Shown in pieces: positions 14,627 to 32,897 of a DNA stretch of 34,916 nucleotides. Source of the stretch: Thermosinus carboxydivorans Nor1 (GTDB lineage Bacteria > Bacillota > Negativicutes > Sporomusales > Thermosinaceae); NCBI RefSeq assembly GCF_000169155.1, contig NZ_AAWL01000023.1, positions 1-34,916 of the forward strand. Reading direction: 5' to 3'. Position numbers and translations under genes: made by a program. Under the pieces are notes generated by a model. It was not told the DNA's origin, did no database searches, and saw only the letters and a list, made by a program, of their open reading frames with translations. How positions within the stretch are numbered: position 1 is the first letter of the stretch; each line of letters starts with the position of its first letter.

Positions 14627-14715
14627 GCCGGGGTGGCGGAACTGGCAGACGCAAGGGACTTAAAATCCCTCGGGTGGTAACACCCGTACCGGTTCGATTC
14701 CGGTCCTCGGCACCA
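14627..14715 (+). tRNA. tRNA-Leu (TAA)
   Basis: Class II tRNA of 89 bases. Acceptor GCCGGGG/CCTCGGC, anticodon loop CTTAAAA (TAA), variable arm around CGGGTGGTAACACCCG, T loop TTCGATT, encoded CCA. Confidence 0.95.
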
Positions 14716-14746: not shown

Positions 14747-14774
14747 TAGACAAAAAGAAAAACTTTGTTATAAT
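14747..14774 (+). promoter_or_regulatory. Candidate promoter of the glutamine-synthetase leader
   Basis: TAGACA (14747-14752), 16 bases, perfect TATAAT (14769-14774). Transcription would begin near 14781, just ahead of the attenuator-like hairpins. Confidence 0.6.
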
Positions 14775-14793: not shown

Positions 14794-14841
14794 GAGTCAA
14801 TGGAGACTCCCCTGTACGTAGTTGCAGGGGAGTTTTGTCTT
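14794..14841 (+). promoter_or_regulatory. Attenuator-like leader: hexaloop hairpin overlapping a terminator
   Basis: ACTCCCCTG (14806-14814) pairs with CAGGGGAGT (14825-14833) and runs into TTTTGTCTT, a good intrinsic terminator about 50 bases ahead of a coding start. A second hairpin, GAGTC (14794-14798) with GACTC (14805-14809) around the six-base loop AATGGA, uses part of the terminator's left arm, so both cannot form fully together. A hexaloop with A at position 1 and G at position 4 is the mark of ANTAR-protein antitermination sites, which often control nitrogen genes. Only one such hairpin is seen where two are usual, so the ANTAR reading is tentative. Confidence 0.6.
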
Positions 14842-14892
14842 ATTTTGTATTGACACGAGTGGTATGTATCAAACTAAAGGTAGAGGTGAAGC

Positions 14893-16809
14893 ATGATGGT
14901 TAAAAAAGATTTACTGTATGTGGTTCCGGCGGGAAAACTTAGCAAAGAAGAAATTCTAGCTCTCCTTCGGGAGCATCCGGAAATTAAATTTGCTTCTCTG
15001 GTAGGCATTGACCTGGCAGGCAATGATACGGATGAAAAAATTCCCATTAAGTTTTTATTAGAAAATATGGACGACTTTTTCAATGGGACGGCTGTGCAAA
15101 CAGATGGCTCTTCCGTAGTGTTAACCGGTATTGCCACTCTCAATAACGCAAAAGTTGATATGGTAGCCGACCCCAATGCCAATTGGTTTGTTGACTACAA
15201 CTTTCAACATATTGACGAAGAAACTGGCAAGCCGATCGGAACTTTGCGCATCCCGTCCTTCCTTGTTCATAATGGCGTGCGGGTTGACTCGCGCTCAATT
15301 TTGGCCACTGGTTTGGAATATGTGAAAACCGAGCTCATGAAACTATTTGGTAAGTATAAGCATATTCCCGGCTTAGAACATATCAATGTCGACGAAATCG
15401 ATGACATTATCTTTACGGCAGCCACTGAACTTGAGTTTTGGGTTAAGACACCGGCCAATAAAGCACAGGTTGAGGAGCTGCGCGCATCGCAGGTCATGCA
15501 GGAGCAATACTGGCAACGCACGCGCGGTGAAGTCCGTACTGCTTTGGAACAGGCATTACTGTTACTTGCCAACTATGGCCTTGAGCCGGAAATGGGGCAT
15601 AAGGAAGTCGGTGGCGTCAAGGCTAAAATCGATGAAACAGGGCACCTCAGCCATGTTATGGAGCAGTTAGAGATTGACTGGCGCTATTCTACAGCTATGC
15701 AAACTGCAGATAATGAACTGCAAGCCCGTATTGTGATCCGGGAAGTTTTCCGAGCCAATGGTTTAGATGTTACGTTTAAGGCTAAGCCAATTATTGGTGT
15801 TGCGGGTAATGGCGAACACACCCATATTGGTATGGCCGCTAGGCTAAAATCGGGTAAGATTGTCAACCTTTTTGCTCCGTCTGACATGAAGAAAGACTTT
15901 TTAAGCGCTATTGGCTATGGCGCCATCATGGGGCTGCTGAAGAACTACGAGGTAGTTAATCCTTTCGTTTCGGCGACCAATGACTCTTTAAACCGGCTTA
16001 AGCCTGGTTTTGAGGCACCTGTATGCATTGTTACTTCGCTTGGTCATTCGCCGGAAGTTCCGTCGCGTAACCGGACCATTCTTGCCGGTCTCGTTCGCGA
16101 TGTTACTAATCCGCTGGCTACGCGTTTTGAAGTACGGTCACCCAACCCTTACACTAATACTTATATTGCCATTGCTGCTTTTTACATCACCATGCTGGAT
16201 GGGATCAAGGCTGCTCTAGAATCGGGTAGATCACTGAAAGAACTGGAAGCCGAACTTTCAAAAGATGCAGGTGTACCTGGCTTTTATCTTGAAACTGACC
16301 GGGCGTATCGCAGTGAGCATGATGTCTTTGACGATTATTCACCGGAAGAGCGCGACCGTCTCTTTGGTAAACCGCCGGCCACTGTTTGGGAAAATATGCA
16401 AAACCTGACCAAGTATCCGGAAAAATTAGCCGTTCTCAAGGCAAGCAACGCTTTTCGTCAGGAAATTATCGACGCTTTCAAGGCAGCAGCATTGCTGCGG
16501 TGGCGGACCGAGCTTATCAATCGCATAATCCCGGATAATCTCGAAATTGTTAAAGAATGCAAGTGTCTCCATGATGCCACCAATGCCAGTGATTATGATA
16601 TGTATATGTGGGAAAAAATCAATAGCCTACGGCTATATCTGGCCAAAGATTCCATAGCCCACAAGTCGCTGTTTAGTCGCATAAAAGAAGCTATCCAAGC
16701 TGGCGATTATGATACTGCCTCTGATCTTCAGATCGAAATGTCCGAGCGGATGACTGAGTTGCAAAACCTCTACTCCCAATACAAAAAAAATATGATTCAT
16801 GACTGCTAA
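14893..16809 (+). CDS. Glutamine synthetase family protein, long form
   Basis: The family ligates ammonia to glutamate using ATP. This 638-residue protein has the beta-grasp N-domain (FNGTAVQTDGSSVV near 64-77), metal-binding TELEFW (178-183), GHKEVGG (235-241), NGEHTHIG (306-313) and RFEVRSPNPYTNTY (411-424). It is well over 100 residues longer than type I GlnA (about 450-470), with the extra length in the spacer near 105-175 and a helical C-terminal part after about 480. I do not see the adenylylation-site motif. It may be a true glutamine synthetase of a clostridial long subclass or a related ligase. ATG 14893 follows AGAGGTGA; the leader suggests attenuation control. Confidence 0.85.
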   Translation: MMVKKDLLYVVPAGKLSKEEILALLREHPEIKFASLVGIDLAGNDTDEKIPIKFLLENMDDFFNGTAVQTDGSSVVLTGIATLNNAKVDMVADPNANWFVDYNFQHIDEETGKPIGTLRIPSFLVHNGVRVDSRSILATGLEYVKTELMKLFGKYKHIPGLEHINVDEIDDIIFTAATELEFWVKTPANKAQVEELRASQVMQEQYWQRTRGEVRTALEQALLLLANYGLEPEMGHKEVGGVKAKIDETGHLSHVMEQLEIDWRYSTAMQTADNELQARIVIREVFRANGLDVTFKAKPIIGVAGNGEHTHIGMAARLKSGKIVNLFAPSDMKKDFLSAIGYGAIMGLLKNYEVVNPFVSATNDSLNRLKPGFEAPVCIVTSLGHSPEVPSRNRTILAGLVRDVTNPLATRFEVRSPNPYTNTYIAIAAFYITMLDGIKAALESGRSLKELEAELSKDAGVPGFYLETDRAYRSEHDVFDDYSPEERDRLFGKPPATVWENMQNLTKYPEKLAVLKASNAFRQEIIDAFKAAALLRWRTELINRIIPDNLEIVKECKCLHDATNASDYDMYMWEKINSLRLYLAKDSIAHKSLFSRIKEAIQAGDYDTASDLQIEMSERMTELQNLYSQYKKNMIHDC

Positions 16810-24461: not shown

Positions 24462-24490
24462 TTGACTATGGAGTCAATTTATAGTAAAAT
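24462..24490 (+). promoter_or_regulatory. Promoter of the riboswitch transcript
   Basis: TTGACT (24462-24467), 17 bases, TAAAAT (24485-24490), immediately ahead of the riboswitch. Confidence 0.7.
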
Positions 24491-24497
24491 TACAATA

Positions 24498-24622
24498 ACG
24501 CCGAATCCGTTTGGTACGGGGGACCCACTAAAGATACAGGGGTGAATCCGCCAGAATGGTGGAAGGGTTCTTTCTCTAGTCCTTCTCTTTGACCCTAACC
24601 CGACAGCTAACCTCGGAGGCGT
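24498..24622 (+). promoter_or_regulatory. Cyclic di-AMP riboswitch (ydaO/yuaA class)
   Basis: The conserved blocks of this class appear in order: CCGAATCCGT, GGTACGGGGGACCCA, GGGGTGAATCC, an AGGGTTC...GACCCTAACCC arm, GACAGCTAACCTCGGAGGCGT. The closing stem is ACGCC (24498-24502) with GGCGT (24618-24622). The class senses c-di-AMP and usually turns off wall-hydrolase and potassium-transport genes at high ligand. No terminator follows: the gene's ribosome binding site begins nine bases on. TCTCTTT (24584-24590) could pair with AAAGAGA (24627-24633), so control of translation through ribosome-binding-site masking is possible; that part is inference. Confidence 0.92.
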
Positions 24623-24643
24623 AGAAAAAGAGAGGTGAGACAA

Positions 24644-30479: not shown

Positions 30480-30720
30480 TAGTGCCAATAGTAATGCGGA
30501 GGATATGGCAGTAATATTTCACCCGTTTCAGAGAAAAGGCGTCGTAGGCTGTGAGCGCCTTTACGGGCCGTTGCTGTTACCCCCTCCAAACTGCTTGGCT
30601 GAACATATAGTAAGCCAAGCCGGGCGCGTCCCGTTATTTTAACGAAGTGGGCTTAAACAGGCCAATCAGGGTGGAACCGCGGGCTAGCTCTCGTCCCTTG
30701 GAGTGGACGGGAGTTTTATT
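30480..30720 (+). promoter_or_regulatory. T-box riboswitch controlling thrS
   Basis: The T-box sequence AGGGTGGAACCGCGGG is at 30668-30683, its TGGAA facing the uncharged tRNA end. It is followed by the terminator CTCTCGTCC (30688-30696)/GGACGGGAG (30705-30713) and TTTTATT. Stem I appears to close with GGAGG (30498-30502) and CCTCC (30583-30587). ACC at 30579-30581, a threonine codon just inside that stem, is my candidate specifier; I cannot confirm its place in the loop. Uncharged tRNA-Thr would favour the antiterminator and thrS expression. Confidence 0.9.
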
Positions 30721-32754: not shown

Positions 32755-32867
32755 GCTTGACAAGTAGAAGCCATCCGCTTCTCACCTTACAACGCATTAG
32801 CAGTTCGTAAGGTTCTGTAAACCCTTGTTTACGCTTTATTGCGGGTGGTTTATGCCATCCGTTTTTT
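32755..32867 (+). promoter_or_regulatory. L20-type leader with competing terminator, infC operon
   Basis: Several stems are visible: ACCTTAC (32784-32790)/GTAAGGT (32807-32813), GTAAAC (32817-32822)/GTTTAC (32827-32832), and the terminator CGGGTGG (32842-32848)/CCATCCG (32855-32861) with six Ts. CCATCCGC at 32771-32778 repeats the terminator's right arm and can pair with GCGGGTGG, so it can act as antiterminator. Ribosomal protein L20, the product of the third gene, represses such leaders in Bacillota; assignment here rests on place and structure. Confidence 0.8.
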
Positions 32868-32897
32868 GTTTGGCAGTATCGTAGGAGGTGAGTGGCA

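Follow-up and report, generated by a model that had tools for sequence, protein, structure and literature searches.

A single-hexaloop leader before glutamine synthetase genes of Negativicutes as a probable ANTAR antitermination target

Can an ANTAR regulator act on a terminator through one hexaloop hairpin instead of two? The question is raised by a locus of Thermosinus carboxydivorans Nor1, analysed here within a stretch of 34,916 nucleotides (the window). The proposed controlled gene encodes a 638-aa glutamine synthetase (GS) homologue (14893-16809, forward strand, as are the leader elements described below). The homologue scored over the cut-off with PF00120, but the NCBIfam models for GS types I and III matched it only below their cut-offs.

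Hairpin and terminator in the leader

The sequence-only reading had described a loop AATGGA on a GAGTC/GACTC stem, with A at position 1 and G at position 4 (A1/G4) and with its right arm inside a terminator stem, and the sequence confirms this. The hexaloop hairpin, the proposed ANTAR site and antiterminator, spans 14794-14809 (left arm GAGTC, 14794-14798; loop, 14799-14804; right arm GACTC, 14805-14809). An intrinsic terminator hairpin (14803-14836) pairs ACTCCCCTG (14806-14814) with CAGGGGAGT (14825-14833) and runs into a U-rich tract (14833-14846); its base pairs next to this tract use the right arm of the hexaloop hairpin. The predicted sigma-70 promoter (TAGACA-16-TATAAT, 14747-14774, 11 of 12 consensus positions) ends 19 nt 5' of the hairpin, and transcription would start at about 14781. 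A ribosome-binding site, GAGGTGA, lies at 14883-14889, and 83 nt separate the hairpin from the GS start codon. The pattern GAGTCANNGNNGACTC occurred once in the window and in none of 100 shuffles. A mechanical signature, defined as an A1/G4 hexaloop hairpin whose 3' arm doubles as the 5' arm of a terminator, was found at 14794-14809 and nowhere else when both strands of the window (34.9 kb) were scanned.

RNA folding gave -5.2 kcal/mol for the hairpin alone and -22.5 kcal/mol for the terminator. The energy of the hairpin stem is ordinary (-5.2 kcal/mol, with shuffles averaging -1.35; z of -0.96 for the 40-nt leader), and the non-randomness comes from the loop, the terminator overlap and the conservation, not from hairpin energy. 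As the RNA was lengthened in simulations, the hexaloop hairpin stayed the most stable fold between 14809 and about 14830; at 14833 the terminator won. Forcing the hexaloop in RNA lacking the 5' leader cost about 6 kcal/mol (-16.8 vs. -23.0) and reduced the terminator to a 7-bp upper stem that no longer adjoins the U tract. Against antitermination, a 5' ACTC found in the genus of the window can form a three-way junction (-22.6 kcal/mol) that restores terminator pairing despite a formed hexaloop. Pairing of the 5' leader with sequence behind the U tract gave an alternative fold, seen in a few species only.

Between the terminator and the ribosome-binding site, a near-palindrome (TTGACA...TATCAA, 14850-14872), largely kept in the related leader L003 (L and G numbers are our locus and genome labels), may act as a second promoter, or else as an operator, giving basal GS expression. 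Rfam returned no family above its gathering score at the hairpin, in 20 leaders or in eight of the regulon loci described below; PyrG_leader and PyrR matches were rejected, as they were below the gathering scores and look terminator-like. Elsewhere in the window, a T-box leader (30485-30701), a c-di-AMP riboswitch (24489-24636) and an L20 leader (32756-32876) exceeded the Rfam thresholds.

Conservation and ANTAR genes across Negativicutes

GS homologues are present in 358 of 380 genomes of the class, and 80 further GS loci (Sporomusa, Selenomonas, Anaerovibrio, Mitsuokella and others) were drawn from genome contigs. The hexaloop proved to be conserved in related leaders: of 180 leaders, a set that takes in duplicates and ANTAR-less genomes, 85 combined an A1/G4 hexaloop with a terminator overlapping it, compared to 1/900 dinucleotide-shuffled leaders. 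Loop identity was not assumed in a second, unbiased scan that admitted any loop of 4-8 nt in 163 non-redundant leaders. Loops of 6 nt accounted for 52 sites (10, 1, 3 and 1 sites for loops of 4, 5, 7 and 8 nt respectively); position 4 was G in 52/52 of these six-nt loops, position 1 was A in 46 and in the remaining 6 it was G, and position 2 was A in 51. Among 41 distinct hairpins, the loop-closing pair was C-G in all 41, and the stem covaried (GAGTC/GACTC, GGTC/GACC, TGGC/GCCA), with 48 cells altered on both sides versus 22.3 in shuffles; as the hairpins were pre-selected for pairing, these counts are supporting evidence and not an independent test. Four GS leaders (L087, L088, L185 and L204) have terminator loops of 55-84 nt, which would give a regulator more time before terminator closure.

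An ANTAR domain was detected above the cut-off in 272/380 genomes. Two covariance models, R1 built from 17 leaders and R2 from 20, gave matches at E<=1e-3 in 198 of the 272 ANTAR-positive genomes vs. 6 of the 108 others (Fisher p = 4e-36, a value that overstates independence because the genomes are related). Among the matches in genomes with no ANTAR domain over the cut-off, that of ANTAR-less G004 (L273) was discarded as a bare terminator without the hexaloop. G227, G237 and G238 are drafts whose genera have ANTAR-positive members, and G295 and G315 are drafts that are 88% and 87% complete respectively. The 74 ANTAR-positive genomes with no model match at E<=1e-3 count against ANTAR control, but are partly explained by low sensitivity of the models: by eye, some of them do have the leader, with a stem mismatch or the loop GACGAA (L158 in G374 and L160 in G348).

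The mechanical signature was also present in 3 of 23 leaders from genomes with no or weak ANTAR domains, two of them from genus g76 and one from a g74 draft; a fourth such leader (L145, g74) is interrupted by a contig end. Genus g76 (G240 and G241; L142, L143 and L319) is the clearest result against ANTAR control: its genomes are complete and ANTAR-less, with no ANTAR gene found by tblastn either, yet they keep a hexaloop-terminator leader with the loop AGCGTT, a candidate relic or target of another regulator. This genus would suit a conserved attenuator bound by some other factor, an RNA-binding protein or an sRNA, and proteins of other kinds could also fit the consensus CAANGRNG. However, the loop and its closing pair obey the ANTAR rule, the leader is associated with ANTAR genes and stands before ANTAR operons, and the other ANTAR-less genera are without it, so that we consider control by another factor improbable.

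One hairpin instead of two

The hairpins of dual-hexaloop ANTAR targets, P1 and P2, are joined by a linker of 2-25 nt (PMC8164766), 5-12 nt in the eut targets of Enterococcus faecalis (PMC3369931). The sequence-only reading had noted that the usual first hairpin is not seen in the short leader, and rightly: the 350 nt that precede the GS gene in the window hold no other A1/G4 hexaloop hairpin, and TATAAT is only 19 nt away. Its suggestion that the mechanism could be reduced or different agrees with what is seen across the class, where the single-hexaloop design is general and not a quirk of one leader. A second A1/G4 hexaloop within 60 nt upstream was found in 3/59 non-redundant leaders (1.9 expected from shuffles) and in 3/41 model-match sites (1.2 expected). 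A recognisable promoter was present in 56 of 85 leaders; in these, the end of the -10 box and the hairpin are a median of 22.5 nt apart, which leaves about 15 nt of transcript before the hairpin. In several leaders (L174, L176 and L178) the hairpin begins 6-9 nt past the -10 box and therefore starts near +1.

These distances bear on whether the element is a canonical dual-hexaloop one with a first hairpin that is degenerate or far upstream, and hence missed. The ANTAR antiterminators characterised in the cited literature are all dual, and a further hexaloop does exist in L267 and in L075/L208. Ahead of amtB-glnB in G098 (L267), two A1/G4 hexaloop hairpins stand in tandem (AGGC-AATGAC-GCCT and AGGAC-AATGAC-GTCCT), each followed by its own stem-loop. 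In L208/L075, the GS hexaloop is preceded at a distance of about 30 nt by a perfect 10-bp inverted repeat around AACGGC, a candidate second hexaloop or DNA operator that overlaps a predicted promoter. But second hexaloops occur near the shuffled rate, the predicted start sites leave about 15 nt of transcript before the hairpin (which in several leaders begins 6-9 nt past the -10 box), and each hexaloop of the tandem overlaps its own stem-loop. A missed first hairpin is thus quite unlikely. Least credible of all is a plain terminator with an incidental hexaloop, be it that of the tRNA-Leu gene just upstream (14627-14712) or a promoter-proximal stop: the hairpin energy is indeed ordinary, but a separate promoter sits between the tRNA gene and the hairpin, and the loop and left arm, unused by the terminator, are conserved though the flanking sequence differs.

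The leader therefore has an A1/G4 hexaloop on a stem of at least 3 bp, a conserved C-G closing pair, a terminator mutually exclusive with the hairpin and, with g76 as the exception, an ANTAR protein in the same genome, while two hairpins joined by a short linker are lacking. It would work like an ANTAR antiterminator yet falls outside the two-hairpin definition of the described family. With the dual-hexaloop targets of EutV, NasR and AmiR, as described in PMC3369931, PMC8934654 and PMC7496416, the Negativicutes leaders share the hexaloop, the closing pair (C-G is also conserved in eutP targets), the short stem, the 3' arm overlapping a terminator, the link to nitrogen genes and a REC-ANTAR regulator with loop-contact residues. 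Unlike these targets, they have one hairpin, no P1 and no P1-P2 linker; the hairpin lies near the predicted transcript start, and A2 is near-invariant (51/52).

Published work points both ways on a single hexaloop. In E. faecalis, induction was abolished by deletion of P1 and strongly reduced with a linker of 3 or 14 nt (PMC3369931), and NasR bound a single hairpin with an affinity of about 12 µM vs. about 1 µM for two (PMC7496416); the Enterococcus P1 requirement and the weak NasR binding would count against a single-hexaloop reading. According to the EutV crystal structure, the dimer uses one hexaloop at a time, and EutV has similar affinity for P1 alone or P2 alone (PMC8934654). That report redefined the minimal motif as one hexaloop, with P1 still needed for recruitment, and its structure left open why P1 is needed (PMC8934654). 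Single-hexaloop sites were expected there where no polymerase time limit applies; the Negativicutes hexaloops overlap terminators, which is the case disfavoured in that model (PMC8934654).

Regulator, proposed mechanism and regulon

The search for an ANTAR-domain regulator in the genome of the window found one ANTAR gene, encoding a 194-aa REC-ANTAR protein next to a 474-aa kinase with GAF_PdtaS, PAS, HisKA_2 and HATPase domains. By our reading, a groES-like ORF lies downstream of the two genes. The best solved relatives of the regulator are PdtaR Rv1626 (3.9e-58; structure 1s8n) and EutV (9.3e-46; structure 6wsh). In the alignment, of the EutV residues described as loop contacts in PMC8934654, R142, K143, Y164 and M172 are kept and K147 is R. 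Across the class loci, RK and M were present in 26/26 matched loci and position 164 was Y or F (4/30 loci were unmatched), although the regular expression used itself demanded R, then K/R, and M/A at some positions. A REC-ANTAR regulator adjoining a GAF_PdtaS-HisKA_2 kinase is the arrangement of PdtaS-PdtaR (Rv1626) and EutW-EutV; unlike in those systems, the Negativicutes targets are single-hexaloop leaders, many of them of nitrogen genes. In the genome of the window the GS leader was the only strong model match (3.3e-10); the next (0.011) was without the hexaloop part, and no such leader was visible at the kinase-ANTAR operon.

We consider it likely that the leader is a GS attenuator run by the REC-ANTAR regulator of the genome, through antitermination on a single hexaloop. 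The hexaloop hairpin would be the first structure formed after the polymerase leaves the promoter. Without activated regulator, the terminator, whose base requires the GACTC arm, would invade the hairpin and transcription would stop. The PdtaS-like kinase would phosphorylate the regulator, presumably as a response to a nitrogen signal, and the regulator, presumed to be a dimer, could then hold the hexaloop. This would cost the terminator four to five base pairs beside the U tract and allow read-through into GS. No upstream P1 recruitment hairpin would be involved.

Other genes behind the hairpin were inspected at 40 loci picked from the model matches, mostly away from GS, with Pfam run on 20 proteins (one of them the GS of the window); the loci were hand-chosen and are thus not a random sample. 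By Pfam, the hairpin precedes ammonium transporters (L304, L313 and L267, the last also with PII), family-3 amino-acid binding proteins (L299, with an ABC ATPase, L303, L308 and L309), SDF symporters (L264 and L314), an amino-acid permease with EutA in an ethanolamine locus (L300), LamB/YcsF (L315), and a kinase-ANTAR operon (L301) or the regulator only (L311). Sites also lie ahead of ANTAR genes found by domain search (L296 and L297) and before GS followed by an ANTAR gene (L298). Pfam matched nothing in the first ORF of L306, and several other loci (L262, L263, L265, L268, L272, L275 and L305 among them) have no annotation or no obvious nitrogen link.

In L256-L260 GS itself is without the hairpin, which is found about 2.3-2.8 kb further upstream, ahead of a GSIII-like gene (identified by Pfam for L256) that is followed by GS. 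In the five cases inspected, the lack of a hexaloop at the GS gene of Pelosinus/Sporomusa-like genomes is consequently only apparent. Two GS leaders (L020 in G093 and L022 in G095) retain the terminator and have lost the hexaloop; G095 has the full element before its upstream GSIII-like gene (L259).

A class-wide nitrogen regulon (GS, GSIII, ammonium and amino-acid uptake, ethanolamine and the kinase-regulator operon) controlled by single-hexaloop ANTAR antitermination seems probable to us, with less confidence than the control of GS in the window. Selenomonadales/Veillonellales have another nitrogen-gene leader, the gltD motif (SRC-18-1). By its published description it differs from our leader, being a candidate riboswitch in which a hairpin masks the ribosome-binding site in front of gltD (PMC8632094). 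In the open-access literature we found neither a report of a single-hexaloop element in Negativicutes nor a paper on the mechanism of nitrogen control in this class, for which the leader offers one. A survey of actinobacterial ANTAR targets likewise searched for dual stem-loops (PMC8164766); our results suggest that single-hexaloop sites, which lie outside the design of such searches, may be common. The ANTAR field holds both hairpins to be essential, and a natural, class-wide system without P1 bears on why EutV needs two and makes the P1 question directly testable. If the proposed mechanism is true, ANTAR antitermination as such could do without P1, and the rule of two hairpins would be a trait of lineages and not a mechanistic need.
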